Notes under the pieces: model-generated | Seen by the model: only the letters and a program-made list of their open reading frames with translations | Database searches by the model: none | Told to the model about the DNA's origin: nothing | Assembly: GCA_009746045.1 (NCBI GenBank) | Contig: RPFO01000165.1 | Span: 248,001-312,000, forward strand | Direction: 5' to 3' | Length of the DNA stretch: 64,000 nt | From: Mesostigma viride | Taxonomy: Eukaryota; Streptophyta; Mesostigmatophyceae; Mesostigmatales; Mesostigmataceae | Part shown: in pieces, positions 12,391-63,074 of the stretch | How the letters are laid out: every line of letters starts with the position of its first letter | Position numbering within the stretch: position 1 is the stretch's first letter | Program-made: the position numbers and the translations under genes

Positions 12391-12391
12391 T

Positions 12392-12602: not shown

Positions 12603-12609
12603 ATTACAA

Positions 12610-13378: not shown

Positions 13379-13383
13379 ACTTG

Positions 13384-20872: not shown

Positions 20873-20891
20873 CGGGATTTTTATGAATACA

Positions 20892-21236
20892 AGTTAAAGC
20901 CCGACCGGCTCAGCTATGGCGCTCGGTCACGTTGAGCTTGGGATAAGGAGAACACAGAGAACTACCGTCGGAGCTGGCCCACCACTGGTTTATGTCTTAG
21001 CCAGCAAACCCTATCCGGTTAGCCGTAACCGTGGGACAAGCTAGCCGTCCGTACTGACCCGGATAAGGCCCCGGACTGGGGCCTAGGTGGCGCCGGCCCT
21101 AGGCGCCGCCCTTAGACCGGTCGACCGCATCGGACCGCCGGATTATAGCCGGCGGCTGAGCGGACGCTAGCGGATGGCGTGCGGACGGACATGGGGAACT
21201 CAGAGCCAGATCCTAGGGCTCTAGAGTTACTCAACT
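20892..21236 (-). repeat. 5' LTR of B1 (345 bp)
   Basis: AGTT at 20892-20895, AACT at 21233-21236; same length as the B3 LTRs. Confidence 0.93.
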
Positions 21237-27483: not shown

Positions 27484-27839
27484 TTAAATAATTACATCAA
27501 ATGCAGACCATACAAAACCCTCTAAGGTAGGGAACTCAAGGGGGCCTCAAGGCCGTCAAAATCACCACGGTATCGACCCGCGCCCTTGTGATCACACAAT
27601 GATGAATAGTGATGTAATAAGTATCGAGCAAAAAACAAACTATGCCACCAGACAAAAGGTGACCCATTTATTAGGACCAGTGACCCGCCGACGGGCCCAA
27701 GGCACCGTCCAACGTGGCTAGGGTATGGTCAGGACAAGCCAAAAAAAAAAAACTACCACCATGATAGTCGTGAATGCTAGCAACACAGGGTGAGTTATGG
27801 CTGTATTCATAAAGCGCCCGAGCCGTAACCCTGTGTGGC

Positions 27840-30180
27840 TCACGGGTGTTGCATCGTCATGCGCTTGCGCAACACTGCGTACTGCGGGGCAGCCTCCCGC
27901 GCCTCCTTGGTGAGTGCATCCGCGGGATTGAGTTCATCCGCGATGTGCTGGAGACGCGTGACGCAGGAGGCCGCCTCAGCGAGTACGAGGTAATCAACGT
28001 CCTGTGACCGCGCATAGGGATTGTCAAGGAAGGCCAAACAACTTTGTGAGTCAGTGTGCACCGTGCTAGTCCAGTGAAGTGTGAACCCACACGAGCCAAA
28101 TACCCAACCCAGCAAGTACCGCAGCCACATGCCATGTGAGATAGCTGAAACAATGCCCCGGCATTCAGCCGTGTTGGGGCTAGTGGCAATGCGGCTGTGC
28201 AAGCGCGAGTACCAATCTAACAACATGCCAGGCTGTCCCTCATTGCTGATAAAGAACAGCGCCCCCATGCGGGCCCGCACTTGGCTGACTGTGCGCGTCT
28301 CTAGATTAGCATCCGTCACTATCTCGAGGTGCACCGGCTGTGAGCAATCGAGCCCACGAAGCACAATACCGGGCGTCATGGCCAGCTGCCGCCGAACATT
28401 AATGGACCCTAGTCCTTCCAGCACATCATCGGGCAGGCGAGCGAGCACTGCCAAATCAGGTGCCACCGTGTCCGCCAACCACCCGAGCTTGCCCTTAACC
28501 GAGGGCCCATGGGTCGCCAACAGCGGGGACGGGAGATCGGCCAGCAGGTCAACCACATAGTTGCGGCTATCCTGCATGTGCATGACCCATTCGCCAGAAC
28601 GCGAATCCCGCTGCAACGTAGACTGCACGCCGCAAAACACCACGGGTTTACCCTCCTCATGATCCACCGCCCTGCCCAGGGGAAACTTAGCCGCCACTGC
28701 AGCAAGAAACTGGGTAGCAAATGTGCGAGGTGCCACCAGCTTGAAGTCATCGCCATGCCACACGAAGAGGGCTGGCTCGTCAGGGACGCCGGTGGGGACC
28801 ACAAAGAAGTTAGGATCAGCGCGATGGTACGTGGCCCCTAAGCTCTGCAAGACCTCCTCCGTGGAAATGCGGAAGATGATGGGAGAGCTCTGCAGCCCCT
28901 CCACCCCTGTCAACAGCTCGATATACTCGCTGCCAATGGTGCCATCCTGCCAGACCACCGGGATCGACCTTCACCACGTAGCGGGTGCCTTACCATGTTT
29001 GCTGCGCGACCCCAGCGTCGCTGTGGAGGAATGCCCGCTGAAAGTCACCGCACCACATCCCGTAGTCCTTGCCCGCGTTCCGCTTGCCCAAGTAGATGAC
29101 CGTCAGTAGCCGATGCGAAACATGGTTGAGCCCAGGGGTATAAAGATCCTTGGCATCCAGCGGGGAGGACCCCTTCGTCTCCGTGACCACGGGCCTAACC
29201 CGGAACACCACCGAAGAGTTGGTCTCGTCCGGCTTGTAGTTGAGCACGAACTTCAACCGCAACCGCGTGGCCCCGGCTGGCACACTCTCCAATCCTCGGT
29301 AGACCTCGCGCTCTCGCCACTGCTCCTTGGCTCGAATGAACGCGTCGCGCCACAGAGCAAACTTGAGAGGATCTTGACAGTCCAGGACAAGTTGCTCCCA
29401 CGTCACAGGGCTATCCGCCGCCAGTGAGTGTGAGTGGAGGCCGAAGCTGCGCGGGTGCCAATCCTGAGGCTGAATGATCGACTGGACTAGCGGCGGTGTG
29501 GAAAACGCCGCCATCGGTAAGCGCCGCACGACGCCGGGCTGCCCGACCACCACCCCCAATGGAGCGTGGTACTTGCGAAGCGGGATGCTGCCCACCCCCG
29601 CGACCGACATCAAGTCAGTGGACACTGAGAACCCTGGGTATGATACGAAAGGTTCGCCCAGCAAGGCCACATCCTCGTAGCCATCCACGACGTGAAACGG
29701 CGTGTCAATGCCCAACACCGGCAGCACCACCATCCCGGTAACTTGATATGCCGAAGTGCCTGCAAAGTCGGTCACCGATTTGTACGGCGACTCTAGCACT
29801 GGATACAGGGTGGCCGCCCGACGAGAGATAATAGACACGGATGCTTGCGTGTCCACAGCCACCAGCTTCCACGGTCTACACGTAGGAAACAAGGCTGACT
29901 TAACCGGCCTGACCCCCTGTGAGAGAGTTTTGACATGAGCCACCCCTGATGCAGCTTTCGCTTTAAGCGCCTGAGCACGCCACAAGGCCGTGACCGTTGA
30001 AGCCAGGTCCCTAGGTGGGCGAGGCGCATGGGCAGGACCCTGACCCTCCGGCGAGGCCACGCTAGGCGGGCCTCCCACATTATCCGTGGCTAGCACAGGA
30101 GGTGAGTCACTACTTGCACTAGGTCCCGTCAAACCCACCCCATCCTCATCCCACCCATCCACAGGGTCATATTGGGGCCC
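27840..30180 (-). pseudogene. PR-RT-RH of element B2
   Basis: Two frames, broken by a 4-bp insertion near 28963, carry the same protease-like, RT (WHGDD) and RNase H segments as B3. Unlike B1 and B3, the upstream C run has nine bases instead of eight, so this frame is continuous with the end of Gag-IN (the open frame starts at 30270). Otherwise differences from B3 are scattered substitutions. Confidence 0.87.
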
Positions 30181-32740
30181 AGGGGAGGGGGGGGGTGTAG
30201 CTGTGTCTGCCCCTGGGAGCGACCCGTGGGGTACCACCTCAGATGCTACGACAGGCGCATTATCCTTCACTACCCACCACGTGCCAGTGCCCTGTTGGCT
30301 GCCAGCTCACTCTCCATGCCATCCCCTTGCTTATAGCCTGCCACCGATGCCCATGGAATCCTATACACCCGATCATTCCACTCTATGTCTATGACCCGCA
30401 GCGGCCAGTCTAACTTTGTGATGGCCCCAGGCCCCTGCATGGTGCCCCGTTTGCCGCTGGGCGAGCTCTCTTGTGGAACATGACCAACTGCCCGACCTCA
30501 AAAGCGCTAGACAAATCAGGCAGCGTGGCATCCTTGAGCCGCAGCTTGGCGGCGGTATCCTGTAGATGCTGTTGGTATGCCTCTACTACCTCGGGTGAGT
30601 AGGTGCCCGCTGACAGCCCCCGAGGCGTGACTAGCCCAAAGCCCTTGACATCGAGCACGTGCCTATGGTTGCACACATGCATGAGCTCCTTGCACCACGT
30701 CGTCTTGACCGCGTAGGATTTGCCATGTGGGTTATCCTGTCGCTTGGCTGCCACAGTCTTGACATAGCTTACAGTGCGATCTATCATGCCCATATTGCCA
30801 TGATCCTCACGCCCCACGATGACCACGGCCTCCATCCCCGGCATGACATCCCCCACAAGGTACCCTCGCTCCAAGGGTGGAGTCTTGGCATGCCGCCTAC
30901 GCGACTTCTTCCTGATCTTGATGCATGCAGGCAGGACACTGAGCACGCACATTCTTCAGCTCGTTGTATAAAGGTGCCCCCAACATGTGTGCCCCCTCTA
31001 CCTCGGCTTGGGCCTCATGCCCGTATGCACGGTGCATCTGGTATGCTAACAGTTTCAGGGTGACAGCCTGAGGTGCAGTGGCATTGTCAGGATTCTCAAC
31101 AGGTGGGGTGACTACTGGGGTAGTGACATTGGCTAACTGGGCAGCTTCAGAGGCTGCACGAAAGGCCGCCCGTGTGAGCACCTTGCCAATGTGAAGATCC
31201 ACACTAGGGTGGTGTGTACCGAGAACATCTGCCCGCCCAGCATTCTCTTGCACTGTCACAACATTCCTCACAGGCCCAACCGCCCCAGTATCTAGCTGGG
31301 GTGCTGCAGTAGTGCTTGGTCGCTCGGCGTTGTACACACCCGACCTAGAAGACACCACATTGCTTAGGTCACGCATTGTAGACCCGTGCTCAGAAAGCAC
31401 GTGATCCTGGCGCGACAGAGCCAGAGCAGCATCAACGGATTGCGTGAGCACATCACGGAAGGAGACAGAGGATGCAGTCACGTTGCTTTTAGGAACGACG
31501 TCAGGCTCTACAACGGCCCGGTTCAGCGTGACGCACTGAGCAAAAGAAGGGGTATCGAGCGTGCTCTCACCTGACTTTCGTGCTGCCCGTCGCTCTGCCC
31601 ACTCCTCGCGTGTGCCGTGGACGACGATGCGCTTGGCCTTGCACGCCTCCACGCTGTGACCACGCAGAACGTCGTGGCACTTGCGGCAAAGGTTGTCCTC
31701 GAGCTCCAGGTCCGGGCGAACTCGGCAGTCATCCCGGACATGGCGACGTCCGAAGCAGCGCTCACAGCGTTGCTTGCGGTCAGTAGACGCCCCCTGCTGC
31801 CGCTTGGCCGGGGGATTATCACCCTGCTTGGCGTCGCCACCATGCCCGCGCTTGCGCCCTCGCTGGCCTCCGTTGTTGCCGTGGCCGACGACCTTTTTCA
31901 GGATGGCCGTAAGCTCCGACCGCGTAATGGGAGCCTCTGTGCCTGAAGAAGAAGACGCGCCGGTATCCACCTTGCGCAGGGATGGCAGAGCAGCCGAGGC
32001 AGCCGGCTTGGACTGCGCACTCTTGAAGCATGAGATCAAATACAGCATGCCCTCGTCGAAACTGACGGCACTCTTCTTTTTGAGTTCCGTCGCTATGGTC
32101 AGATGCACATCCGACGACAGGTCGCATTTCTTGAGAAATCGATTGCACAGGAAAATGGGCTTGAGAGTATCTAGCAGCTTATGCTTGTGCACGAAGACCT
32201 GGAAATCACGTGCAGCCCCGGGCAAATTTGCATTATTAACTGCATATAGCCCTCGAAATCGTTGAAGGCTTGCTCGTCGGCCTCTTCCTTAGACCGCGAC
32301 AAGTGGGCATCTAGACCGTTGTAAAAAACTTCCCAGGTTTGTTTGTTGTCGTCCGCAATGCGAACTAGATTGGCAATGTTTGGGTGCTTGGTTGCACTGC
32401 AGAATACTGCACGGAACTTGCCAATCAGCTCCGAATCTTTGTCCGCGCGTCCATCGCGCAGACGCTTGAGAGCAGCCAGAAAATCTGCTGCGTCGTCCGC
32501 CGTATAGTCGGCAGGTAGATCAGCGGGCACCTCCGTTTGCTTGAGAGGGCCGCGATTCAGTGCGTCGTCAGCAGCAAGCATCAAATGCTTGAACTGCTTG
32601 GCCAGTTCAGGTTGCGCCACGAGGGTTTGCATCAACCTCGTGGCCTCGTCCGCACTAAAGCGTGGCAGGACGGACCCTGCGGCCTCGCCACTTGGCGTAT
32701 CTGTGTGTTCGCCCGTGCGGCTCCGTGTACCGGAAGCCAT
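30181..32740 (-). pseudogene. Gag-integrase of element B2 with deleted integrase core
   Basis: It begins at the ATG at 32740. Gag is shifted by an inserted AT near 32245. The zinc motifs and integrase HH-CC part are readable to about 30920, where a short duplication shifts the frame. Then an in-frame deletion of 183 bp relative to B3 (56994-57176 there) joins GYLVGDVM directly to PGMEAVV, removing the second catalytic aspartate of the integrase. A further base is lost near 30470. This copy could not encode an active integrase. Confidence 0.87.
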
Positions 32741-32759
32741 CGGGAATTTTATGAATACA

Positions 32760-33106
32760 AGTTAAAGCCCCCGACCGGCTGAGCTATGGCGCTCGGTCAC
32801 GTTGAGCTTGGGATAAGGTGAACACAGAGAACTGCCGTCGGAGCTGGCCAACCACTGGTTTATGTCTTAGCCAGCAAAGCCTATCCGGTTAGCCCTAACC
32901 GTTGGACAAGCTAGCTGTCCGTACCGACCCGGATAAGGCCCCGGACTGGGGCCTAGGTGGCGCCGGCCCTAGGCGCCGCCCTTAGACCGGTCGACCGCAT
33001 CGGACCGCCGGATTATAGCCGGCGGCTTAGCGGACGCTAGCGGAAGGCGTGCGGACGGACATGGGGAACTTAGAGCCAGATCCTAGGGCTCTAGAGTTAC
33101 TCAACT
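32760..33106 (-). repeat. 5' LTR of B2 (347 bp)
   Basis: AGTT at 32760-32763, AACT at 33103-33106. TTGTATTCATAAAATTCCC follows on the minus strand before the Gag ATG. Confidence 0.94.
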
Positions 33107-33805
33107 GGGCCAACAGAATCAGAATTGGTATTTGTATTTGCACCCTGTCCTCCTGACGGTGGTGCTCGCCATGATTCGGTCGGTTTTCCCCCACGCGAAC
33201 ATCCGGTCAGAGGATGCGGATGGCGCTGCCTTTTATTCCCCCAACCACCGGCCTGACATCGTGGTGCTGGACTTTGAGGGGGGTGGCCGGCATCTGCTTA
33301 TTGACGTTTCGGTGGCGCGGCCCTTGGCTCTTAGCCACGTGGCTGGGGCCAGCTCCCTCACGGCAGGTTACACGGCGGACCGGGCGGAGCGGGCCAAGCT
33401 CCTGGCCTACGGCGACGTCGGGCACCATCGTGTGGTGCCCTTTGTCCTGGAGGAGTTTGGGGCCATGGGGCCCCTGACCTCCGCCTTCTTCAAGGAGTGT
33501 TGCCGGCTCCGGGAGGACCGGTTGGACCTGGAGGGCCAGCGGGCCCCATGGTCGGCGCGGACCTGGACGTCATATTGGCGTCAGCGCTTGTCGGTGGCGC
33601 TGACTGGGGCCATGGCTGACAACATGCTCCGCCGTACGCGGGCTGATTTTGCGGTGCAGCAGGGCTATTAGGTTCCTCCCGTTAGGCGTTTCCATTGGTC
33701 TTATCGTAGTATAGAGCTTTGACATGGCTCTGTATATAGGTTTATAGCTGGGCGTTTGCTTTGGTTTGAGTGATTTCACTCTGCTGTAAGTAATTTTTTT
33801 TTTAT
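33107..33805 (+). mobile_element. Right part of the non-LTR copy split by B2
   Basis: Continues the ORF of 24550-24790 (open frame to the stop at 33671, with RPDIVVLDFEGG and IDVSVARP) and the 3' tail from 33678. It is about 98 percent like 23838-24530 by eye, with one 3-bp insertion (AGC) near 33350. Confidence 0.85.
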
Positions 33806-34549: not shown

Positions 34550-35605
34550 AGTTAGCAACAAAGCCCAGAGCGTGAGCTCCTGGTCTTTCACGCACAACGG
34601 GATGAGCCAAAGTTGCAGGCAGCAACCTTTTAACCCGTGCACCAAGCCACGACCACGGTGGTCACTTCCACGTCCAATGTGGGCGCCCACGGTTCGTGCT
34701 TGCCAAGATAGCTGGTCATCCCCCATGACCAAGCTATATCCTTTGTGTTGTTCCTCGTTCCCATCGGCGTGACGAGGCACGTGCAGGCGTGCAAGCAAAT
34801 CCTCAACGTCCACTGGCATCAGTGCAGAGCCAGGACGAACTGGATTTGCCTAGACTCTGCAACCTAGGAAGTACAGGACCTGTCACAAGCCTGCAAGGTC
34901 TAGTATCCTTGCAGTCCTGTGCCAGCTCCAGTACCCCACCAGTCACAGGCTGCTGCTCAAAGCCCAGAGCGTGAGCTCCTGGTCTTTCACGCACAGCGGG
35001 ATGAGCCAAAGTTGCAGGCAGCAACCTTTTGACCCGTGCACCAAGCCACGACCACGGTGGTCACTTCCACGTCCAATGTGGGCGCCCACGGTTCGTGCTT
35101 GCCAAGATAGCTGGTCATCCCCCATGACCAAGCTATATCCTTTGTGTTGTTCCTCGTTCCCATCGGCGTGACGAGGCACGTGCAGGCGTGCAAGCAAATC
35201 CTCAACGTCCACTGGCATCAGTGCAGAGCCAGGACGAACTGGATTTGCCTAGACTCTGCAACCTAGGAAGTACAGGACCTGTCACAAGCCTGCAAGGTCT
35301 AGTATCCTTGCAGTCCTGTGCCAGCTCCAGTACCCCACCAGTCACAGGCTGCTGCTCCTCCTGGTCTACGTGGACCACAGTCACGTGATAGTCAGGCTAA
35401 GCCTGTGCAGGCACGGCCTGCCACGTGTCCTGTCCACTATACCAGAGGACTGCACCGTGCAAAGGCGTAGTCGGCCACGGACGGCTAGGACTTCGGGACC
35501 TCATATCTTTCTCGTCCCTTGTCTGTTTCAGGCGGTCAGCACGGCGTTGGAAAGGTCTTTCCAGACTGCATCCACTTAGCATATTGGTTGCCCAAAATGC
35601 TAACT
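34550..35605 (-). repeat. 3' LTR of A2 with internal 399-bp tandem duplication
   Basis: 34562-34960 and 34961-35359 are near-identical direct repeats. Without one of them the LTR is about 657 bp, matching the 647-bp 5' LTR at 63075-63721. The duplication is confined to this LTR. Confidence 0.93.
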
Positions 35606-36091: not shown

Positions 36092-36259
36092 TGTCGCGTC
36101 TGCGTACCACAATCTCCGGCGCCACCATGGCGGCTGGCCATGCTCAGCTTTGGTAAAACCCAAATGAGCTGAGCTGACGTGCCTGCCTTAACTGCATGCC
36201 CGGTGGGTTGGGCGAGGAGCTGTCCCATGATTCCCCCCCTCGCTGGCTCTCATGGCTCC

Positions 36260-37112
36260 TCACATGGCCAGCGACCGTGCCAACACCACAGCAGCTAAGG
36301 AAATGGTGACGCTACTGGTTGCGAAACGGGCAGCGACACAAACTGGGCAAAACCACTGGCCCGCTGGCACGGTGGTGAGCGCTGGCTGCAAGCAGTGCAT
36401 GTGCCACCCACAATTACAGTGATCACACAGCAACATGGTATCCCCCTGGTCTACGCGATGGCAAACCTGACACTGTGCGTCCTTGACCCGCCTGGCCGTG
36501 TGCGGGGCGAGGTCAGGCAATAAGTTGGGCAACGAACACGGACTGAGGTTGCTTACGTTATCGGTGGTGCGACTGCCGTCGACGCCCTCCAAAATGGCGA
36601 CCCCAGATGGCTTGATGGCGACGATCCGCAAGATGGTCGGCCCCGCAGTCACGTCAAGAGTGTCGGTCAGCTGCGTGCGGAGAAATACGAACTGCCCCGG
36701 ACGAAAATGCAGCTGACGGGCCATGTAAGCGCCCCCCCGGCGCTGAGCGTAGCGCAGGGTATCTCGGTGCTGGGCGATGAACAAGTTGTTCATGGCGATG
36801 GGCATAACCTTGCGGAAAGTAGCCGCCCGTGCGGTCACCTCAGCCAGAAACTGACTGGCGTTGTCAAACGCCATAGGGGTGGGGTGTGCACTCTGCGCCT
36901 CCGTGGGGAGCAAGGGTGCGCGCCCAAACAACAGGAAATACGGGGAGAAACAGGCGAGCGACTCCTGGGGTGACATTCGGTAACCCATGGCTATCCACGC
37001 CAGTTCACGATCCCACATAGTGAATGATGCTGACTGCAGGCTCCACTTGCGCAAAGCCTGCTTGACAGTCTGCACCAATCTCTCAGCCAAACCATTGGCC
37101 TGAGGATGCTCC
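36260..37112 (-). pseudogene. Gypsy integrase C-terminal region fused to a PHD finger
   Basis: The frame (37090-36260) opens inside the integrase core at AERLVQTVKQAL, whose glutamate is the third catalytic residue. It passes through the core end (GYRMSPQESL...FGRAP), a basic/aromatic GPF-like segment (FRPGQFVFLRTQL), and ends with a C4HC3 zinc finger around residues 205-252: CQVC, then CDHC, then HMHC, then CPVC, with the tryptophan of GQWFCPVC in the usual place. PHD fingers bind histone H3 tails; chromoviruses normally carry a chromodomain here. The role, targeting integration to marked chromatin, is inference. It is joined to the preceding integrase frame by a shift near 37110. Confidence 0.85.
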
Positions 37113-37600
37113 GAGAAGTGCGACGGTGATCAATGAGACATGCATCCAACAATTCCTGAAATTCCCCCGAAACTCCCCGCCCTGGTCGGTGACCACCTCC
37201 GCGGGGGCGCCAAACCTGGCGATGATGTCGGCGAAGTGCTTGGCGGTGGTGGCGGCCTGCTTGTCAGCAATGGGGATGAGCTCGACCCACTTGCTAAAAC
37301 TTTCGACACACACCATGACATACTTGTGGCCATCTGCACTTTCATCAAAGGGCCCACACAGGTCTACGTGCCAGCGGTAGAAGAGCCCTCTGATGGGTAG
37401 GCTCATCAATTCTTTCGCATCGTGGTCCACATTGAACCGGGCCTTCACCCGGGCACACTGCGCGCAGCGCGCGACGACCTGCGCGACTGTGGCACGCATG
37501 CCGTTCCACCAATAAGAGGCGCGCACTAGCGCCAAAGTGCGGTTACCACCCAGGTGGCCATACCGCTCATGGCTTGCTGGACGATGGCGACCCGCTTGTG
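37113..37600 (-). pseudogene. Gypsy integrase, zinc and catalytic part
   Basis: The frame 37661-37083 carries the HERYGHLGG zinc histidines with CAQC, the first catalytic aspartate in WHVDLCGPF and the second in VVTDQGGEF, all standard for Ty3/gypsy integrases. It follows the RT frame through a one-base shift near 37575 and runs into the C-terminal frame through another near 37110. Role: insertion of the cDNA into chromosomes. Confidence 0.88.
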
Positions 37601-39436
37601 AGGCGGCGGCACCACCACTTTGCGCTTGCCGATCATTTTGTGGAGGACCCCGGCATCCCACGAGTAGGTGACCGCCCTATGTTGCACCCTATTCAACTCA
37701 GCGTCACGCTGGGCTGAGGACCAATCAACAGGGGTTGGGGTGAGAGCTATCCCTTGGACCTGCTCCAACACACGCCCATCGAGCCACACATCACCCATGT
37801 TGCATTCCACTGTGAGATGGCCAACCAACACCACCTGGAGTGCTAGGTATCGTGCCAAGGTATTGTCAATGTCAAAGGACGGAGAATTACCTTCCTCCAA
37901 CGCGAGGAGGCCAGCGGCAGGGGTGAAGGGAGAAGGGTGAACTGCATTGCAGCTTGCCGCAAAGTCTGCGACTGTATACTCGACTGCGCGCCAGTCTGCC
38001 TCGGCGTCGGCGTCAGCGAAGCCTGCAGCATTAACAAAAACCACAGACCCAGGCGAGCTCTCGGCCCCTAGGGCCCGCGCACCAGTGTTGTCAACAGTGG
38101 TTGGTAGAGCATACCTGGACAGGACGTCCGCGTTGGAGTGATCCACACCTGGCCGATGGACGATTGTCAGGTGGTACTCCTGAATGATCATTGCCCACCG
38201 GGCCAGCTTACCCGTGAGTTTGTCGCTGGTCATCAACCACAATAAGGGCTGGTGATCAGTGACAAGTGTGAACACCCGCCCAAAGAGATATGGCCTGAAG
38301 TGCTTGATGGCCCACACAACGGCTAACGCTTCCCCCTCGTAGGAAGAGTACCGACTCTCGGCAGAGTTGTTACTCCGACTAGCGTACGCGATAACATGCT
38401 CGCGCCCCGCATCGTCCTTTTGTGCTAGCACAGCCCCTAGGCCTACCTTGGACCAATCGGTGTAAAGAATGAAGGGCAGAGCATAGTCGGGGGCGCGTAG
38501 GATAGGAGCGGCAGTCAGTTCCTGTTTGATGGTATCGATGGCTCGCTGCTGAGCCGGACCCCACGCCCAGACATTGCCCTTCTTCAACAACTCAGTCAGG
38601 GGTTTGACTTTGGTGCTGAAATTCTGAATATATCCTCGATAATAGCCAGCTAGCCCGAGATACGCGCGCACCCCCGAGATGTCGATGGGCACTGCGGCGT
38701 TGCTGATGGCTTCCACTTTGGCTGCCTCAGGGGTCCGGCCACCTGGTACAATCTGATGGCCAAGAAACCCTATGGTCTGTTGGGCGAACTTGCACTTTTC
38801 AGGGTGCAGCCGCAGGTTGGCCTTATCTAGGGCGATCCGAACCTGATCGAGGTGAGCTAAGTGCTGGTCAAACGTCTCGCTAAAGACAATGACATCGTCT
38901 ATGTAGCAGGCTGCAAATGGCAACCCTGCCAGCACCTGGTCCATGGCACGTTGGAACACCGCACTAGCGTTGCGATGTCCGAATGGCATGCGAACCCACT
39001 CGTACAGACGGGTCCCACCCCAAAAGGCCAGCTTGCGCTGATCTGCCTCTACGACCTTGATCTGATGGAAGCCGCTACGCAAATCTAGCGACGACACATA
39101 CTTGACCTGGGGAGATATTTTATCCAAAACATCATCGACCCGAGGCATGGGGTACCTATCAACAGGAGTGTGCGCGTTCAGCTGACGCAGGTCAGTGGCC
39201 ATGCGCATACCTGTCCACTCGCCTGTGATGGTATCCTTCTTGGGTGCAACCACCGTGGCAGCTGCATAACTGGAGGATGAAGCGCGGATGATCCCAGCTG
39301 CCTCTAGCTCTCGACAGTTAGCATCTACGAATTCCAGCTCAGCCAAGCTCAGCCTATGCTGCCGCCTGAATAAGGGCTGATCCGTATCTAGTGGGACCCC
39401 CATGCAGCCCCCGTTGTAGCACCCTAGTTCTTCACT
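37576..39436 (-). pseudogene. Gypsy reverse transcriptase and RNase H
   Basis: The frame 39403-37526 (open further upstream to about 39436 without an ATG) holds a full gypsy RT: VVAPKKD, RMATDLRQLN, SLDLRSGFHQI, MPFGHRNA and the active site YIDDVIVF. RNase H follows (LYTDWSKVGLGAVL, YEGEALAVVWAI, TDHQPLLWL, NADVLSRYAL), then a tether toward the integrase. These are canonical motifs, in contrast with the HGDD of the copia-like elements nearby. The reading frame itself is uninterrupted over 600 residues. Confidence 0.92.
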
Positions 39437-41185
39437 GCTGAAAGCAAAACTGAGCGTGCAGAATGCAACCAGTGCTCCATAGCCTTGCGTTGCGCGGCGG
39501 TGAGGTGCTCACCTATGGCCCATATGTGAGAGGCAGCAGGATCTGCGACTGCGGCACTCCTACTGTCGAGACAAGGCCCCCGGACAGCGGCATCGTGGAA
39601 AAGGGAAAATGCGGCTACACCGGGTGTGACGCTCACCTGCTGAATGGCACGGACTGCGCGACCGACCGATTGCTGCAGGGTGGGCGCTCCAGCGAACACC
39701 GTGCTGGACAACAAGGACGTCATGAGGATAACGCTCCATAGTTGAAGCAGCCGCGATCTCCATGGCGACCCAGTGCCGCCGGACGCTGTTGGCCGGACAC
39801 CAGCCGCGTGGGCACTGACAGGCGGTGGCGGTGTGGGGATATCTCCCCCACCCTGGCGCACTTGCATTGCGGCCCGCAGAACATACCCAACCTGGAAGGC
39901 TGACATGGCTTGCCCAACGAGAGACCACCTAGTGGCCTCTAAAACCCCCTCAGCGGCGGACGCCCCCACATGGAACCCCATGCTCACCTCCGAAACTCAG
40001 CGGGCGGCTGCACCAACAAACCCGTACCGGTGTCCCATACCAAACCCTTGCCCCGGTCCCTGTAGGCCGATGACCCCTGGTAACTAACCAAGGTGGGAAG
40101 AGCGCACATAGGCTTACCTACGTGATTGACGGGTGCGTAAGGGTGCCGATCGGCGACATCTACACGCTGCGTGACCAAATGTGGTGGCAGCGCCACCTCC
40201 GCGGGCATGCCGTCGTGCTGTCGTGTGATCGCATCTACCACTGCCTGGATGGTGGTGGTGAGTGCAAGGTTGGTCCAGAATGCGCGGTACCTGTGGGTGA
40301 GCCCGCCCAATCCTGCATTGTCGCACGTGACTGGGCCCCTAAGATATCCACGATCTGGGCCCAGTCCTTCCTCACTACCTCGTGAGGGCTGTCGTCGGCC
40401 ACCACGTTCTCAAAAAGATACGCTAGTGGCTGGTCCTGCAGCTGCTGCAAGAGTCCAACGACTCGAAGCAGATCCCAAAACAACCCGCTCCTAGGATCCG
40501 CAAGCCCGCGTCCTACGCCGGCCTGACTCAACCCTTGACATTCCCAGCCCGCGAGGACGAGGTCTATCCTCTTGTGCCGCCTCAAAAGGCCTCGCACATG
40601 AACCTCCCCAATAGCACGGATATCCTGAGGGCACTCCCCAAACGGATCTGTCCACGCAGACGGAGGGAACTGAGATGGATACAGGGCAGACAGCTGGGCA
40701 CAGTGATGCCTATACACTGCCCGAGCGGTAGGAGACGGCTCTACGGCGATCAACGTGTGGCACGTACCGCCTGCAGCGAGAAAGCCAGCCAGCCCCCCTC
40801 CCATCCCAGCAAACAATTCTAGCAATACAACCCCTTCGGACAAGACCCGCGACTCTGCCACAACATCGGCACAGAAGTTACCTTCGGTTGTCGCGACAGC
40901 CACTTGGGACTGCGATTGCCGCGGGAGATCAGAGAGAGTTGTTGCTGCCGCACCGCGTTGGTGACGTGCTGACGCAAAAGGGCCTGCCGCGCTTGCGGCT
41001 GCTGTCGCAGTTGGATGGAGACTAGGGACGACGAACAACTGCTGAAGCTGAAAGCGAATGATGATTGTATTACAATAATACAATGAGAGAGCAATGGAAG
41101 CTGAGGGCTCAGAATGGAACGTCTGGGCAAACTCGGGTGCTGTGGCACTCCCCAGTGCTACGCCTATATGCCTATGGCGGTGCTA
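39424..41185 (-). pseudogene. DNA (cytosine-5) methyltransferase domain of the gypsy element (two frameshifts)
   Basis: Three successive frames give one DNMT3-like domain. Frame 1 (about 41185-40235): motif I LELFAGMGGGLAGF, the catalytic cysteine in AGWECQGLS, LFWDLLRVV and motif VI FENVVADD. Frame 2 (40310-39984): motif VIII HRYRAFWTN and the target-recognition segment KPMCALPT. Frame 3 (39987-39424): MGFHVGAS and motif X SLVGQAMSAFQVGYVL, then a Pro-rich linker toward RT. The shifts lie at a GGGG run near 40340 and near 39998. DNMT3-type enzymes methylate cytosine de novo. No N-terminal ATG is seen before motif I, so this may be an internal part of a larger polyprotein. Spacing fits fusion to the Pol downstream. 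Confidence 0.85.
41064..41084. repeat. Perfect 9-bp inverted repeat at the start of the methyltransferase frame
   Basis: ATTGTATTA, three bases, TAATACAAT. It could form a small hairpin in RNA or be a protein site; significance unknown. Confidence 0.5.
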
Positions 41186-44003: not shown

Positions 44004-47000
44004 CTAGGCGTCCCCCCTATGGGGCAGGGTTGCCTGCTTGCCATAGGGGTTCATCAAGTGGTACAACAGCTGGTATTGGTCAGCTGCCTGCTGAGGCACT
44101 TTAGTGAGTGCATCAGCAGCGTTGTGTTTGTCCTCCACGTGACGGGTGGACTCCCAGTAGGTGGACTCCTGTTTCAGGACCACCCAGTCAAGATCAGTGT
44201 GGACAGCATAAGGGTTAGCAAGGAAACTGAGGACTGACTGACTGTCAGTGAGCAAGTGTGCCACCACCCCAGCATTGCTGCCTGCTTGCATCTGCAACCA
44301 AACCAGCACATGATTCAAGTACCTGGCATGAAGCACTGCTGACACCACTGCCCTGCACTCAGCAGCATTGCTGCTGACAGCCTTGCGTCTATGCAACCGG
44401 CTGTACCACGAAATGAGAGACAAGGGTGCATCATCATTCTGCACAAAATACAAGCCTGACTCCCTTGCCTGCAACTTGGTAATCTGCCTGGACTCCATGG
44501 AACTATCCATCATAGCTTGGATGTGAATGGTTTTGTGGAGATCCAAGGAGTGTAAGATAAGGGGAGGGCCTTCCTGGAGAGTTTTGGTGATGGCTTTGTG
44601 ACCTACTTGCATCAAGACATCATCATCAACTCTGCTAACCACAGCCATGTGAGGTGCACATGTTGAGCACAACCACCCCAGCTTGCCTCTAATGGTGGGA
44701 CAGTCTCCAGGTTTGATTTTGGATTGCAAAACCTCCAAGCAGCTGTGCATGTAGTCGTTGGGAGAGTAGAGTGCACACACCCACTGGTTTTGATGCTGCT
44801 GGAGTTGTAACATTGTGCCACAAAATTTTATGGCAGTGGTGCCCAGCTCTACTTGCTTGCCAATCTCAAAATGCTGTGACACTTGTTGAATAAAATCCTC
44901 CACAGCACGCCTTGGCCCAGCAATCAGCTGATCATCCCCATGCCACACAAAGGTGAGAATGCCATGAGGGTGTGGGACCACAAAGAAGCAAGGGTCTATG
45001 TCATCATATGTAGCCCCTAGCTTTTCAAACACAGCCTGAGCTGACATCCTGAAAATGCGAGGAGCTGATTGCAGCCCTTCAACCCCTATGTTAGCTTTCA
45101 GGTACTGCTGAGGAATGTGTTTTGCCCAAACTCTGGGAGTGGAGACTACATACACCTGACCATGCCACACTTGTTGTGCTATCTCAGGTGAGCCTTTCAA
45201 GAAAGCCCTTTTAATGTCTGTAGCCTTACATACATAGTCATCCCCATCATTGAGATGACCCACAAAGACAGACAGCAAGATTTTTAAGGAGGTTTGCTGA
45301 ATGCCTGGCGTGTACAACTCTGCCTCTGTCAGATCAGTGGTGCCCTTGAACTCTGTCACACAAGGTCTAGCATGAAAAATGACTGACCCATCTGCTGCTG
45401 GCTTATGTTTACACACAAACTTCAGGCGCAAATGCTTGCACCCTGCAGGCTTTTTGTCAATAGGTGTGACAGGAGGAGTATGAGAAGGGCTAAGAGGATC
45501 TGGCACTACCCATTCTTCCCTGGCCTTGTTAAAGGCCTCCACCCATTTTAGGAATCCTATGTGTGTGCGACAGTCTTGCTCTATCTGTTCATAAGAAAGA
45601 GGAGACATTTTAGCCACATCATGCGCCGCCCACGTACTTTGCAATGAGGCCCGTCCCACCAGCGCTGTTGGGATGCACGGTCGATGCCTATCACGCACAG
45701 CCCCCCCAGCTGCCGTGACGACCCCCATCCGGACCTCCACCACCGCATCGCGCAACCCAGCCTCGACCCGGTTGACCGTCGAGACACGCACTGCCCCAGT
45801 GTCCGAGCTGTAGCAGCTCACCGGGATGCTTGCTTGGCGCATGGCGTCACCGTCTCTGTCAACGATGTACACCGCGCGGCCCTCCCACATGCGTACCTCG
45901 AGCCGCATGGGAAACATGACCTCCATGCCGACCAGCACGTCATACGATGACTGCTCGGTCACAAGGGCATTCACAGGGATGCAGGCCATGTCGGATGGCC
46001 TGAGCGGGTTGAGGATGACCATTACCTGGACCGCAGTCATGGCAAAGGGTTTAGCGGCAGGGCCCTGCCAGCCCGCCACGGACACATGACTGTCCCGCAG
46101 CCCGCCATTCTCCCTGGTTAGGTTGAGCAACTGGGCCAGCCGAGCACTGATGACGAGTGGCTGGGCCCCGCTGTCCAGTTTCACGACCAATTCATGGTCA
46201 GTACTGTAGACCACGTTGCTCAGGGGCTCCCCATGCCCCTGCGCCTGAAACGCCATTGCTGGCTCACCATCCGGATATGAGGTGACAGTGGGTGCCCTAG
46301 GCACGACGCACGCCCGCTGCGCGTTGTCCAAGACACCATGAGCGACATGACCCACGACTACCGAAGCCGATGCAGGGCGATGCTCAACAAATGTGGCTGT
46401 CTCAGCGTTGTGCAACCTACGGGCGTCCATTGTGTCAGCGTACCGCTGTACCTCTGACGCATGCGACCCGAGCACCTCCACGGCCCGCTGACCGAACCAC
46501 TCGACCACTTGCCGGGGAGTGTATGCCGGCGTGTCCACGACCGATGGCATAGGGTATAATGGCAACAACCTGCGCCGCTGCTCTGCCCCAGCAGGATTGT
46601 CGTGTTCCAGGGTGGAGCCGGTCCGAGCGGGAGCCATGCGAAAGGACTGAGGCAACTGCCCCACAGTCTCACTTGGCTGCCCCACCTGAAACGACGGTGG
46701 TGCACGTGCTTGCTTCCTGCGCGCGCCAACTGCGTGGATGTCCAACGCCATCACGTCGGCTGGCCGCCAGAAATCTTCGTCCCTGTATTGAACCTGCAAT
46801 CCCCCATCCTCCCTTTCACGCCCCCCTGCCTCGCCCGTCGGCTGAATGATGACCACCCCCGCGTCCACCTTCTTGTCCTCCACGTCCGCAAAGTGCACCC
46901 CCGGCGCTGGGCACTGCCCCGCCAGATGGGTTCGGACCGTTGCTGGGTGTGACTTCTTACACGCCTTGGGACAATCACGTTTGATGTGCCCATCCTGACC

Positions 47001-48733
47001 GCACAGGAAGCAGCCCGATTTGCGCGCATCCGTCCTACCCGTCTGTGAGGACGTGCCCCCCCCAGCTCGCGTCGGGGCGGCAGCGTCCTTGTTGCCGCCA
47101 GCGGCGTTACCGGCCTGGGTTGCATCATGCGATGAGGCGTTGCGAGACCCCCCTTGGTTCCTGCTAGCACTGTGGCCACCTTGCGGGCGCGCTTGTCTTG
47201 TGGCAGACGACTCACCCGACTTGGCCTTGGTCAGCGCGTCGACCTTGGCCTGCAGCTCGGCCACCACCGTGCTTACCGAGATCCAGCCTTGCGCGTGTCG
47301 TCGCATCATGGCCCTGACCTCAATGCACAGTGACCGCAATCGCCACGGCTGGCCGTTGGGCGGCGTGGGCAGCTCCATCTCCTTGGAGCCTAGCGCTTGC
47401 AGCCATTTCTGACACGCCAGCTTTTCGGACCAGTCCTCCACTTCGCCGGCGAACTCCATGAGGCGCTCGTAAGATTGCTCCGGGGTTTCACCCTCGGCTA
47501 TCTTGAAACTGCGCCACTCACGCTCCGCCTTGATGGTCTCCACTGGGTATTCCTGGCGAAGGAGGTCCCACGGTTCCTCAGCAGGGTCGACACCATACAT
47601 GATGTTGTCATAGTCGGGCTGGCCACGCCCGTCGAAGCCGAACCACACGTCCGTGTGACGCGTGTACAGCGAGACCTCTCTCCACTGCTCCACCAGCCTA
47701 GCCACTCGCCTCAGCGTAAGGCCGTGAAAGAAAAAATGCATGTTGTTCATCACAAACTCATGCATTACAGCGCCTTGCGTAGTCATGTATTGCAGATCAA
47801 TCCATGACTTGTACGCGTTGTAGGCCTGCGCCAGCGTGGCCAGATTGCCGGTTGTGGAGAACTTCTCGCGCATGTCCACCCGTGGTAGGGTGGGCATCTT
47901 CGCGCCTTCAGGATTGAGGCGCACCCTTTGCGGGTACTGCACCCCATTGGCATCCTCCGGCGGTCGCTGAGCTGCGCGTCCCTGCGCCAGCGTGCTTGGG
48001 CGTGCTGCCTCCCGTACTCGGAAAGCCAGCGGCGTGGTTATGTCCTCCATGGGCGGAATGCGCCCGATTGGCACACTTGACCACCGTGCAGTCGACCCGC
48101 CGGTCAGCGCCCCACCGCCTCGCCCAAACGGAATTGAGACCCCGCCTGGCAGCATGCGTCCTGGTGCACCCCTGCGTGGGTCCATCGCGCGCGCCAGCCC
48201 TGCCCCGTTCTCCTCGTGCAATCCGTCTCGCGCTTGATCGAAAGGCAGGCGCCTGGGCGCCAGCGTATACTCGCCCCGTGGCTGACCATCCGCCTCACCA
48301 AGCAAGTCGTGTTGTGTTTGGGCGACCCAGCCAAAACCCCCGGTTCCATCGGAGCCCTTCCCGCCGCATTACCTGAGGTTGGCGGCTGGTCCCGCTCCCT
48401 CGGCTCCGCGGCAACACCACTGGGGCCCGGCATCGATGCCTGCCCGTCCCATGGTGTGGACTGCAGATGACGACCCTCTACGGCCACCAATCTGTCGGTC
48501 ACTTCCCGCATCTGCAGCGCCAGTTGCTGCTGCAACTGTTGCGACTGTTGCTGCATCTGCGCTTGCATCTGCGCGAACAGCGCCACCATACTCAGCGGCG
48601 CTTCTTGGTGTCGACTCTCACCCACTGCGGGTACGGCGGAAGGAATCCCGCCATTCGACCCCGGAGCGGACGTGTCGGCATCTGCTCTATTTGCATCCGC
48701 CATGGCTCGAGTCTGCGCTCGCGTCAGTGGCAT
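44004..48733 (-). CDS. Copia-like polyprotein C1: Gag, protease, RT, RNase H, no integrase
   Basis: One frame of 1433 residues (48305-44004) is open without interruption. Upstream, the frame from the ATG at 48733 (or 48703) supplies a Gln-rich coiled N-terminus (MQAQMQQQSQQL) and joins it if one base is changed in the GGGGGTTTT run at about 48333-48341. Domains by residue of the long frame: Gag about 130-400; CCHC knuckle CFLCGQDGHIKRDC about 431-445; retropepsin with canonical LDSGAQ near 710 and YDVLVGMEVM; about 130 residues of linker; RT with TDIKRAFLKG and WHGDD near 1120; RNase H with AECRAV, TDSQSV and ADALTK at the end. No HH-CC motif or DDE core occurs anywhere in it. RT and RNase H clearly belong with the A and B families. 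Confidence 0.88.
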
Positions 48734-54736: not shown

Positions 54737-55081
54737 AGTTGAGTAACTCTAGAGCCCTAGGATCTGGCTCTAAGTTCCCCATGTCCGTCCGCACGCCTCC
54801 CGCTAGCGTCCGCTAAGCCGCCGGCTATAATCCGGCGGTCCGACGCGGGCGACCGGTCTAAGGGCGGCGCCTAGGGCCGGCGCCACCTAGGCCCCAGTCC
54901 GGGGCCTTATCCGGGTCAGTACGAACGGCTAGCTTGTCCCACGGTTACGGCTAACCGGATAGGGTTTGCTGGCTAAGACATAAACCAGTGGTGGGCCAGC
55001 TCCGACAGTAGTTCTCTGTGTTCACCTTATCCCAAGCTCAACGTGACCGACCGCCATAGCTGAGCCGGTCGGGCTTTAACT
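54737..55081 (+). repeat. 5' LTR of B3 (345 bp)
   Basis: AGTT at 54737-54740, AACT at 55078-55081. It is followed directly by TGTATTCATAAAAATCCCG and the Gag ATG, leaving only 19 bp of leader. It contains GC-rich inverted repeats, for example GGCGCCTAGGGCCGGCGCC near 54870. Confidence 0.95.
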
Positions 55082-55100
55082 TGTATTCATAAAAATCCCG

Positions 55101-57884
55101 ATGGCTTCCGGTACACGGAGCCGCACGGGCGAACACACAGATACGCCAAGTGGCGAGGCCGCAGGGTCCGTCCTGCCACGCTTTAGTGCGGACGAGGCCA
55201 CGAGGTTGATGCAAACCCTCGTGGCGCAACCGGAACTGGCCAAGCAGTTCAAGCATCTCATGCTGGCTGCTGACGATGCACTAAATCGCGGCCCTCTCAA
55301 GCAAACGGAGGTGCCCGCAGATCTACCGGCCGACTATACGGCGGACGACGCAGCAGATTTTCTAGCTGCTCTCAAGCGTCTGCGCGATGGACGCGCAGAC
55401 AAAGATTCGGAGCTGATTGGCAAGTTCCGTGCAGTATTCTGCAGTACAACAAAGCACCCAAACATTGCCAATCTAGTTCGCATTGCGGACGACAACAAAC
55501 AAACCTGGGAAGTTTTTTACAACGGTCTAGATGCCCACTTGTCGCGGTCTAAGGAAGAGGCCGACGAGCAAGCCTTCAACGACTTCGAGGGCTATGCAGT
55601 TAATAAGGCAAATTTGCCCGGGGCTGCACGTGATTTCCAGGTCTTCGTGCACAAGCACAAGCTGCTAGATACTCTCAAGCCCATTTTCCTGTGCAATCGA
55701 TTTCTCAAGAAATGCGACCTGTCGTCGGATGTGCATCTGACCATAGCGACGGAACTCAAAAAGAAGAGTGCCGTCAGTTTCGACGAGGGCATGCTGTATT
55801 TGATCTCATGCTTCAAGAGTGCGCAGTCCAAGCCGGCTGCCTCGGCTGCTCTGCCATCCCTGCGCAAGGTGGATGCCGGCGCGTCTTCTTCTTCAGGCGC
55901 AGAGGCTCCAATTACGCGGTCGGAGCTTACGGCCATCCTGAAAAAGGTCGTCGGCCACGGCAACAACGGGGGCCAGCGAGGGCGCAAGCGCGGGCATGGT
56001 GGCGACGCCAAGCAGGGTGATCATCCCCCGGCCAAGCGGCAGCAGGGGGCGTCTACTGACCGCAAGCAACGCTGTGAGCGCTGCTTCGGACGTCGCCATG
56101 TCCGGGATGACTGCCGAGTTCGCCCGGACCTGGAGCTCGAGGACAACCTTTGCCGCAAGTGCCACGACGTTCTGCGTGGTCACAGCGTGGAGGCGTGCAA
56201 GGCCAAGCGCATCGTCGTCCACGGCACACGCGAGGAGTGGGCAGAGCGACGGGCAGCACGAAAGTCAGGTGAGAGCACGCTCGATACCCCTTCTTTTGCT
56301 CAATGCGTCACGCTGAACCGGGCCGTCGTAGAGCCTGACGTCGTTCCTAAAAGCAACGTGACTGCATCCTCTGTCTCATTCCGTGATGTGCTCACGCAAT
56401 CCGTTGATGCTGCTCTGGCTCTGTCGCGCCAGGATCACGTGCTTCCTGAGCACGGGTCTACAATGCGTGACCTAAGCAATGTGGTGTCTTCTAGGTCGGG
56501 TGTGTACAACGCCGAGCGACCAAGCACTACTGCAGCACCCCAGCTAGATACTGGGGCGGTTGGGCCTATGAGGAATGTTGTGACAGTGCAAGAGAATGCT
56601 GGGCGGGCAGATGTTCTCGGTACACACCACCCTAGTGTGGATCTTCACATTGGCAAGGTGCTCACACGGGCGGCCTTTCGTGCAGCCTCTGAAGCTGCCC
56701 AGTTAGCCAATGTCACTACCCCAGTAGTCACCCCACCTGTTGAGAATCCTGACAATGCCACTGCACCTCAGGCTGTCACCCTGAAACTGTTAGCATACCA
56801 GATGCACCGTGCATACGGGCATGAGGCCCAAGCCGAGGTAGAGGGGGCACACATGTTAGGGGCACCTTTATACAACGAGCTGAAGAATGTGCGTGCTCAG
56901 TGTCCTGCCTGCATCAAGATCAGGAAGAAGTCGCGTAGGCGGCATGCCAAGACTCCACCCTTGGAGCGAGGGTACCTTGTGGGGGATGTCATGCACATGG
57001 AAGGGGGGGACACCTATTTCATAGTCAAGGATAGGTTCAGCAAGGCCACCTACATTGAGCCGCTGCCTCACATGTTTGAGGCTGACCTGCACAGGGCTAT
57101 CAAGATCAGCCTGGCTTTCTTTCATCCCGTAGTGGAGCTCATGCTAGACCAGCAGTTCCGCTGTGTGCAAGGTTTGCCGGGGATGGAGGCCGTGGTCATC
57201 GTGGGGCGTGAGGATCACGGCAATATGGGCATGATAGATCGCACTGTAAGCTATGTCAAGACTGTGGCAGCCAAGCGACAGGATAACCCACATGGCAAAT
57301 CCTACGCGGTCAAGACGGCGTGGTGCAAGGAGCTCATGCATGTGTGCAACCATAGGCACGTGCTTGATGTCAAGGGCTTTGGGCTAGTCACGCCTCGGGG
57401 GCTGTCAGCGGGCACCTACTCACCCGAGGTAGTAGAGGCATACCAACAGCATCTACAGGATACCGCCGCCAAGCTGCGGCTCAAGGATGCCACGCTGCCT
57501 GATTTGTCTAGCGCTTTTGAGGTCGGGCAGTTGGTCATGTTCCACAAGGAGAGCTCGCCCAGCGGCAAACGGGGCACCATGCAGGGGCCTGGGGCCATCA
57601 CAAAGTTAGACTGGCCGCTGCGGGTCATAGACATAGAGTGGAATGATCGGGTGTATAGGGTACCATGGGCATCGGTGGCAGGCTATAAGCAAGGGGATAG
57701 CATGGAGAGTGAGCTGGCAGCCAACAGGGCACTGGGGTGGGTAGTGAAGGATAATGCGCCTGTCGTAGCATCTGAGGTGGTACCCCACGGGTCGCTCCCA
57801 GGGGCAGACACAGCTACACCCCCCCCTCCCCTGGGCCCCAATATGACCCCGTGGATGGGTGGGATGAGGATGGGGTGGGTTTGA
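55101..57884 (+). CDS. Gag-integrase polyprotein of B3 (927 aa)
   Basis: ATG at 55101, 20 bp after the LTR. Residues 1-250 are a helical Gag; two zinc motifs lie at 325-338 (CERCFGRRHVRDDC) and 351-366 (CRKC...H...C). The integrase has H569, H574, C601 and C604, then a core with candidate acidic residues D629 (GYLVGDVMHME), D683 (LMLDQQF) and D713 (NMGMIDR). The last is Asp where A1 and A2 have Glu, and only 29 residues separate it from D683. The same residue is Asp in B1 and B2. No protease is seen between Gag and integrase. The reading frame ends at 57884, past a C8 run at 57819-57826; adding one C would join it to the next ORF. Confidence 0.92.
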   Translation: MASGTRSRTGEHTDTPSGEAAGSVLPRFSADEATRLMQTLVAQPELAKQFKHLMLAADDALNRGPLKQTEVPADLPADYTADDAADFLAALKRLRDGRADKDSELIGKFRAVFCSTTKHPNIANLVRIADDNKQTWEVFYNGLDAHLSRSKEEADEQAFNDFEGYAVNKANLPGAARDFQVFVHKHKLLDTLKPIFLCNRFLKKCDLSSDVHLTIATELKKKSAVSFDEGMLYLISCFKSAQSKPAASAALPSLRKVDAGASSSSGAEAPITRSELTAILKKVVGHGNNGGQRGRKRGHGGDAKQGDHPPAKRQQGASTDRKQRCERCFGRRHVRDDCRVRPDLELEDNLCRKCHDVLRGHSVEACKAKRIVVHGTREEWAERRAARKSGESTLDTPSFAQCVTLNRAVVEPDVVPKSNVTASSVSFRDVLTQSVDAALALSRQDHVLPEHGSTMRDLSNVVSSRSGVYNAERPSTTAAPQLDTGAVGPMRNVVTVQENAGRADVLGTHHPSVDLHIGKVLTRAAFRAASEAAQLANVTTPVVTPPVENPDNATAPQAVTLKLLAYQMHRAYGHEAQAEVEGAHMLGAPLYNELKNVRAQCPACIKIRKKSRRRHAKTPPLERGYLVGDVMHMEGGDTYFIVKDRFSKATYIEPLPHMFEADLHRAIKISLAFFHPVVELMLDQQFRCVQGLPGMEAVVIVGREDHGNMGMIDRTVSYVKTVAAKRQDNPHGKSYAVKTAWCKELMHVCNHRHVLDVKGFGLVTPRGLSAGTYSPEVVEAYQQHLQDTAAKLRLKDATLPDLSSAFEVGQLVMFHKESSPSGKRGTMQGPGAITKLDWPLRVIDIEWNDRVYRVPWASVAGYKQGDSMESELAANRALGWVVKDNAPVVASEVVPHGSLPGADTATPPPPLGPNMTPWMGGMRMGWV

Positions 57885-60169: not shown

Positions 60170-60546
60170 GCCACACAGGGTTACGGCTCGGGCGCTTTAT
60201 GAATACAGCCATAACTCACCCTGTGTTGCTAGCATTCACGAATATCATGGTGGTAGTTTTTTTGCTTGTCCTGACCATACCCTAGCCACGTTGGACGGTG
60301 CCTTGGGCCCGTCGGCGGGTCACTGGTCCTAATAAATGGGTCACCTTTTGTCTGGTGGCATAGTTGTTTTTTTCTCGATACTTATTACATCACTATTCAT
60401 GTGTGATCACAAGGGCGCGGGTCGATACCGTGGTGATTTTGACGGCCTTGAGGCCCCCTTGAGTTCCCTACCTTAGAGGGTTTTGTATGGTCTGCATTTG
60501 ATGTAATTATTTTGATAATTAATCAAAGAACAAAAGAGTATGTCGG
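60170..60546 (+). other. 3' UTR of B3
   Basis: Noncoding; contains CCTAATAAATGGG (AATAAA near 60329) and ends in AAAGAACAAAAGAG, the probable polypurine tract, 13 bp from the LTR. Confidence 0.75.
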
Positions 60547-63041: not shown

Positions 63042-63074
63042 GAAAAACCTTGCAACAGGAAATGCAATAATACG

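Follow-up and report, generated by a model that had tools for sequence, protein, structure and literature searches.

A probably self-primed Gypsy-type retrotransposon of Mesostigma viride with a DNMT3-type methyltransferase and a PHD finger, and its probable integration through a site inside the long terminal repeat

Retroelements of the Gypsy type that carry a DNA methyltransferase (MTase) have a described precedent in KnitGypsy-Dnmt3 of the charophyte Klebsormidium nitens, where a Dnmt3-type MTase lies inside the Pol open reading frame (ORF) of a streptophyte-alga element (de Mendoza et al. 2018, PMC5890265; what is said here of published systems follows the accessible parts of the cited sources). 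The same arrangement is found in the element reported here, which comes from Mesostigma viride, in a window (the whole stretch of DNA analysed) of 64,000 nucleotides of contig RPFO01000165.1 (assembly GCA_009746045.1, positions 248,001 to 312,000 of the forward strand). On the minus strand of this window, positions 41008-36092 hold a truncated, frameshifted Gypsy-type element with a DNMT3-type MTase, a reverse transcriptase (RT) with RNase H, a DDE integrase and a PHD finger. Together with its relatives elsewhere in the genome, it probably represents a multi-copy, self-primed Gypsy-Pol element, encoding an MTase and a PHD finger, which would integrate from end-joined cDNA through a site inside its long terminal repeat (LTR).

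The repeats of KnitGypsy-Dnmt3 are described as DIRS-like, which matches the split repeats found here. The word 'PHD' is absent from the main text of PMC5890265, and the accessible parts of that paper give, for KnitGypsy-Dnmt3, no target duplications, self-primer site, variable joints, composite insertion or integration route. The paper treats the acquisition of the MTase as independent in K. nitens; in contrast to an account confined to this alga, relatives are seen here also in Mesostigma, Closterium and Marchantia. One integrase-PHD protein from K. nitens (P0058) shows 40% identity, in a comparison made with this single protein. SymbioDIRS-Dnmt3 of Symbiodinium (PMC5890265) also combines a Dnmt3 with an RT and split repeats. 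However, it is a DIRS element with a tyrosine recombinase, whereas the element reported here has a DDE integrase and 4-bp target duplications. Also, the split direct repeats of PAT/Ngaro elements have the A1-B1-A2-B2 layout observed here, although these elements use a tyrosine recombinase (PMC4157794). In the self-primed LTR elements of the Tf1/sushi group, such as Tj1 (PMC4600332), the primer site is complementary to a segment of the LTR, in the 5' part of the would-be transcript, as is predicted for the present element; unlike them, the Mesostigma element has its integration termini inside the LTR and carries an MTase and a PHD finger. Finally, for the foamy virus integrase acting on 2-LTR circles (PMC1180852) and in the circle-junction model of 1984 (PMC11054761), the integrase cuts a palindrome of joined ends, as is proposed here. 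In those cases the palindrome is the LTR-LTR joint, whereas here it would lie inside each LTR, the LTR-LTR joint being kept uncut. The 1984 model was given up for retroviruses in favour of linear DNA (PMC11054761).

Copies were sought in the genome with PF00145 and with the window MTase. The first search scored 123 of 415 candidates and yielded 127 matches, among them other MTases; the second scored 126 of 1445 candidates and also yielded 127, both figures being lower bounds. An open frame of 1642 amino acids (aa) recurs in at least 6 of the 127 rows of the first search, and one of 2074 aa in at least 20 of the 127 rows of the second. Three subfamilies can be distinguished: A, with a Pol of 1642 aa, B, with a Pol of 2074 aa, and C, represented by the window copy, with an identity to the window MTase ORF of 55.5% for A and 70% for B. 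In family B (locus L014), a single ORF holds the MTase from residue 550, RT at 1079-1243, RNase H at 1331-1435, integrase at 1625-1794 and the PHD finger at 2005-2049. The same order is found in a single ORF of family A (L003), with the MTase from residue 107, RT at 648-812, RNase H at 900-1004, integrase at 1192-1361 and the PHD finger at 1572-1616. Both contain the MTase motifs I, IV (AGWECQ), VI, VIII and X, in what we take to be their numbering, and the D, D and E motifs of the integrase. An earlier note on this DNA had placed the MTase and RT in one element, and the two indeed share one ORF in both Pol ORFs scanned. A host gene disrupted by a gypsy insertion was also considered and is strongly opposed by the recurrent single frames of 1642 and 2074 aa.

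In family B, the Pol ORF is preceded by a 615-aa ORF without Pfam match. The one before the Pol ORF of family A has 1081 aa and a weak match to a zinc knuckle (0.0035); by eye, its end agrees with the N-terminal part of P0001, a EukProt protein that bears the name Mesvir1. We call these first ORFs Gag-like by their position. Moreover, the L014 ORF shows a weak zinc knuckle at 32-48 (E 0.0018, under its cut-off), and LDSGA at residue 311 resembles, by eye, a retroviral-type protease motif. The order RT-RNase H-DDE integrase, which identifies a Gypsy Pol, was found with Pfam across the window pieces and in both Pol ORFs scanned. Among all matches, from six pieces of the window and from four ORFs, no chromodomain follows the integrase, a PHD finger being present instead, which places the element outside the chromoviruses; neither is there a tyrosine recombinase.

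Self-comparison of naturally adjacent stretches reveals two layouts of the inserted copies, A1-coding-B1-gc-A2-B2 (long form) and A-coding-B (short form), A measuring 1127 bp and B 136 bp in family A. The termini are TGTCRCG on the left and CGCGACA on the right. Among 25 copies examined, eight have both termini in the stretches covered, and an exact 4-bp target site duplication flanks all of them (8/8; CTTG, GGCC, TACT, GGTT, AACC, GGGG, AGTT and CGCG). These eight comprise four long forms (C2100, C1613, C113 and C2200), three short forms (C1579, C224 and C224c) and one composite (C133). The TG...CA ends and the short target duplication are those of a Gypsy element. The identical terminal LTRs of such an element are not observed, all eight copies beginning with A and ending with B, and the long form has the split direct repeats known from DIRS/PAT elements. 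A comparison of A1 with A2 in three family A copies gave 0-2 differences over 1127 positions. Because canonical terminal LTRs are lacking, the element is filed with the KnitGypsy-Dnmt3 kind, as this is described in print, and not with ordinary LTR elements; it is not filed as a DIRS element because the ORFs scanned contain no tyrosine recombinase.

Two features locate the putative starts of cDNA synthesis. B begins directly after a run of G. In five copies, from families A and B and a short element D, A1 is immediately followed by 13-14 nt whose exact reverse complement occurs within the LTR, a complementarity equalled in 0-1 of 2000 shuffles. This would be the layout of self-primed elements such as Tj1/Tf1, with a transcript 5' end that is predicted here from sequence alone. 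The minus-strand and plus-strand starts would then define a cDNA ending in B...A, so that the LTR would be B-gc-A and the inserted termini would lie inside it. The short element (L033 and L024, G000:C133:11900-16199) is non-autonomous, with about 300 bp between its repeats and with the termini, G-run and self-primer layout of the MTase-Gypsy elements, by which it is probably mobilised.

The A2-B2 joint of family A has four forms in five copies, where the bases before AGAAAAG are TCTTA in C2100, TCTT in C1613 and C1690, TCTTATC in C2200 and TCTTATCCA in C777, the extra bases being the first ones found after A1. Such variable joints are expected if ends with primer remnants are joined anew. At C133, A'' and B'' of the short element D exactly bracket a complete B-A-coding-B-A of family B, and GGGG flanks the whole; this structure is read as two cDNAs joined before a single integration. 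At C111, two family B units share one LTR, and the predicted left end of C111 was looked for and not found. Moreover, the palindrome CGCGACAGCTGTCRCG gave 409 forward and 405 reverse matches, the symmetrical GCG form being counted on both strands, against 0+0 for the control. When the LTRs of A, B and D are compared at E 1e-3, the shared blocks lie only at the palindrome (33 columns for A-B and 27 columns for B-D), which looks like the recognition site of the integrase.

Regarding the class of the MTase, a PDB search with a five-row profile returned DNMT3A first (8.5e-12), then DNMT3B, then plant DRM and then bacterial enzymes. Also, DNMT3 entries occupy ranks 1-48 among the 50 rows listed by Foldseek for a low-confidence AlphaFold2 model, and the motif order is unpermuted, unlike that of DRM. 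The DNMT3 type proposed in the earlier note is thus retained from profile and fold and not from a tree, as the 12-row tree that was run (support 59/64) is too weak to prove a single origin. In the alignment, where rows reach, an insertion before motif IV and the motif AGW(P/E)CQ are common to the MTases of retroelements, whereas DNMT3A and DRM have neither. No viral relative was confirmed in two scans, with P0003 and with the window MTase. The dN/dS values between the window copy and family B are 0.115 for the MTase, 0.060 for RT-RNase H and 0.085 for integrase-PHD. Between A and B they are 0.108 for both the MTase and the PHD finger, unreliable values with dS above 2, and dS is saturated for RT-RNase H and integrase.

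The PHD finger (model with mean pLDDT 67.1 and pTM 0.31) has as its first matches BAZ2B, Lid/KDM5, BAZ2A, WSTF, ATXR5 and CHD4, several of which read unmodified H3K4. The observed/expected ratio of CpG is 0.78 in A, 0.85 in B and 0.80 in the window copy, compared with 0.69 in the rest of the window and 0.89 in a pool of three flanks; for TpG/CpA, the element has 1.35-1.46, compared with 1.30 and 1.19, respectively. Bisulfite data of M. viride are published, and 5mC is reported there, mostly in CG (PMC6947507).

The following cycle would then be probable for an element that encodes a Gag-like ORF, a protease-like stretch, a DNMT3-type MTase, RT, RNase H, a DDE integrase and a PHD finger. A transcript begun in the LTR would be copied into cDNA by self-priming, with further priming at the G-run, to give a linear BA-coding-BA, whose ends would be joined to each other or to those of another cDNA. 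The DDE integrase would cut the palindrome CGCGACAgcTGTCRCG inside one LTR, with loss of the 2 bp that separate the termini, and insertion would occur with a 4-bp stagger; here the ends and the duplications are observed and the route is the proposed part. Copies of the A-coding-B form, without a second LTR, would probably be dead ends, whereas A-coding-B-A-B could yield a complete template when transcribed. As only this long form keeps what a further round needs, the spread of the element would depend on end-joining. More tentatively, the MTase may methylate the cDNA or the insertion site, and the PHD finger may help to anchor the integration complex on chromatin in which H3K4 is unmodified.

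Several points weigh against this proposal. The joined cDNA intermediate, either circle or concatemer, is deduced from inserted structures only, and a linear cDNA cut in both LTRs is another possible source of A-coding-B copies. The both-ended sample is small, with 8 copies, since 17 of 25 are without one or both ends in the stretches examined, some being truncated and two having their left side outside those stretches; for C2200 and C224c, the ends were examined separately, and the middle falls outside those stretches. The composite at C133 is one locus, LTR A and LTR D share no block at E 1e-3, and no protease has a Pfam match in the ORFs scanned, the protease-like stretch being a motif seen by eye. 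For the MTase, a single-sequence search listed DRM first (6.8e-05) and no DNMT3 up to E 1, and the AlphaFold2 model is weak (mean pLDDT 56.9). Finally, the reading of H3K4 by the PHD finger is a weaker suggestion, drawn from sequence resemblance and the ligands of the fingers that it resembles, and the CpG signal is equivocal as a mark of self-methylation.

An unlikely alternative is a DIRS/PAT-like replication with Gypsy proteins, where B1-A2 would be an internal complementary region that aligns the cDNA ends for the formation of circles, with no usual LTR. This would agree with the A1-coding-B1-A2-B2 topology, equal to that of PAT elements (PMC4157794), and with the DIRS-like repeats of KnitGypsy-Dnmt3 (PMC5890265). 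Nonetheless, the scanned ORFs combine a DDE integrase with the absence of any tyrosine recombinase among their Pfam matches, and the target duplications are of 4 bp in 8/8 copies. Moreover, the G-run lies exactly at the start of B1 and the self-primer site exactly at the end of A1, and primer-site bases appear at some A2-B2 joints.

More doubtful still is integration from linear cDNA only, in which the palindrome would be cut in both LTRs and the long form would result from later recombination between tandem or nested copies. The A-coding-B copies with target duplications (C1579, C224 and C224c) would be explained in this way, as would the two family B units with a common LTR at C111. However, the long form too has single exact duplications (C2100, C1613, C113 and C2200), its A2-B2 joint varies by primer-site bases, and the near identity of A1 and A2 in three family A copies (0-2 differences of 1127) is also contrary to it. 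Finally, the reading of the earlier note, with an MTase that marks cDNA or target and a PHD finger that steers integration, is very improbable when combined with conventional ends because the ends are unconventional and the CpG signal is equivocal, even though the MTase and PHD motifs are intact with low dN/dS and two SymbioDIRS MTases methylate CG in yeast, where the KnitGypsy result was inconclusive (PMC5890265). Integration from end-joined cDNA through the LTR-internal palindrome is therefore the preferred reading.

In other organisms, a search with the integrase-PHD piece, a query that itself holds the finger, found PF00628 in 51 of the best 120 of 168 proteins (hand count), among them proteins of Calypogeia fissa and Klebsormidium nitens. 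With the RT piece, a query without the finger, PF00628 was present in 23 of the best 120 of 1088 rows (hand count), and the PHD finger is therefore a recurrent trait of this Gypsy group. Among 249 proteins examined for MTase homology, it stands beside an RT outside Mesostigma in a Marchantia protein (P0175), with partial matches in Closterium (P0188, P0230 and P0214, before the RT). It is also present in the metagenome proteins P0200, P0182 and P0199, while P0180 and P0202 hold weaker fragments of it (after RNase H). Its absence in other relatives means little because the length limit of the search hides polyproteins above 1155 aa. A quick RT tree, built from the 106 longer ones of 122 matches, unites the Mesostigma families in a single clade inside a group of 73 rows (value 100, with an asterisk in the tree), to which the MTase-bearing relatives also belong. 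Thus the combination of MTase and PHD finger is not as singular as the earlier note had supposed, given the many PHD-bearing relatives, the MTase-bearing ones in other streptophytes and the publication of KnitGypsy-Dnmt3 in 2018 (PMC5890265). In the literature surveyed, which consisted of titles and abstract openings with most subscription papers outside it, neither an MTase-bearing Gypsy element with a PHD finger nor an LTR element integrating via an LTR-internal site is reported.

P0175 is the land-plant protein Mp_2g26090 of Marchantia polymorpha, with MTase and RT in one frame; in the accessible part of PMC6338049, methylase-encoding transposons are said to be absent from land plants such as tracheophytes. 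A further protein, P0006, labelled Prorocentrum lima in EukProt, has 181 aa that match the final part of the family B Pol with 99% identity, and would be either a Mesostigma contamination of that data set or a transfer; if it is a transcript, it would hint at expression. The genome also contains C5-MTase matches of another kind, in repeated open frames of 364 aa (10 rows), 313 aa (17 rows) and 309 aa (7 rows), for example, at C35:17404-18288, C67:20746-21285 and C1413:3606814-3607356. At the nearby locus L020, three ORFs gave no MTase match.

The window copy, of subfamily C, occupies 36092..41008 on the minus strand, with its 5' end on the high side, as delimited by sister copies. C1956 is 99.4% identical to it over 4923 columns and C1107 99.1% over 2025 columns, both from 41008, and small indels separate the three copies. 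As seen by direct reading and by comparison with the sisters, such indels break the window copy into six pieces in different frames. The domains had been named earlier on one strand and in order, which is borne out by Pfam on the six minus-strand pieces (four with MTase, RT, RNase H, integrase and PHD matches). Of the span 36260-41185 given with them, the domains hold whereas the limits do not, the element's own share being 36092-41008. The first frame (40235..41008) has the MTase motifs I-VI (LELFAGMGGG, AGWECQ and ENVV; DNA_methylase PF00145, 8.9e-12, in the ORF piece 40235-41182). The rest of this piece (41009-41182) falls outside the sister-copy homology. Because both sister alignments begin at 41008, the 315-aa MTase ORF starts with ~57 residues that belong to flanking DNA; in the remaining rows of the window-MTase search, the match to this ORF starts at residue 49 or later. 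The remainder of the MTase, with HRYRAFWTN (motif VIII) and GQAMS (motif X), and a linker are read directly in two other frames (39424..40409). There, two middle pieces gave nothing over the Pfam cut-off; nevertheless, the MTase motifs VIII and X of the sister copies continue in them, and the counterparts of these window motifs share one frame in P0246/P0248.

Further along the minus strand are RT and RNase H (37526..39508; RVT_1 4.2e-28, RT_RNaseH 1.1e-38), the integrase zinc-binding domain with the first part of the DDE core (37083..37676; Integrase_H2C2 1.8e-14, rve 2.7e-10), and the C-terminal part of the integrase with the PHD finger (36260..37129; finger at ~36338-36472, PF00628 1.9e-09, residues 220-264). 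A poly-G run, the polypurine tract, is read directly at 36233..36239, in the same position as in the sister copies, immediately before B1 (36092..36232). According to the sequence and the sister copies, B1 closes at 36092 with ...CGCGACA, the right terminus of other copies, and A2 and B2 are absent. Conventional LTRs flanking the window copy were looked for and not found. The copy is truncated at its 5' end, being without the upstream stretch common to C1956 and C1107, where families A and B have gag and the protease-like stretch.

Elsewhere in the window, a 6.1-kb repeat is present at 15101-21236 and, inverted, at 54737-60877, with 99.5% identity between the two; further copies occupy 27486-33107, and those of its long ORFs that were tested gave no Pfam match. 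A Copia-like element lies at 44004-48368 on the minus strand, where a frame of 1454 aa contains RVT_2 and a zinc knuckle. A tandem repeat of ~399 bp lies past the right end of the MTase element (34559-35357) and again near the window end (63072-63721), and 12001-14000 has a strong GC skew (0.475 over 2 kb).

Whether the proposal extends to a whole streptophyte lineage of DDE-integrase retroelements is evenly balanced. In such a lineage, integration would proceed from end-joined cDNA via a palindrome buried in the LTR and end-joining would be required, the DIRS-like split repeats would be its scar, and an MTase acting on double-stranded DNA would be kept because of a long-lived joined intermediate. 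If true, the element would be a natural example of an integrase that acts at an internal attachment site of joined retroelement DNA, and it would account for the origin of split direct repeats where a tyrosine recombinase is absent. Moreover, relatives in Mesostigma, Closterium and Marchantia widen the range of MTase-bearing Gypsy elements beyond a single charophyte, and the pairing of an MTase with a PHD finger in one polyprotein makes the use of DNA methylation by a retroelement testable in an alga with published bisulfite data (PMC6947507).

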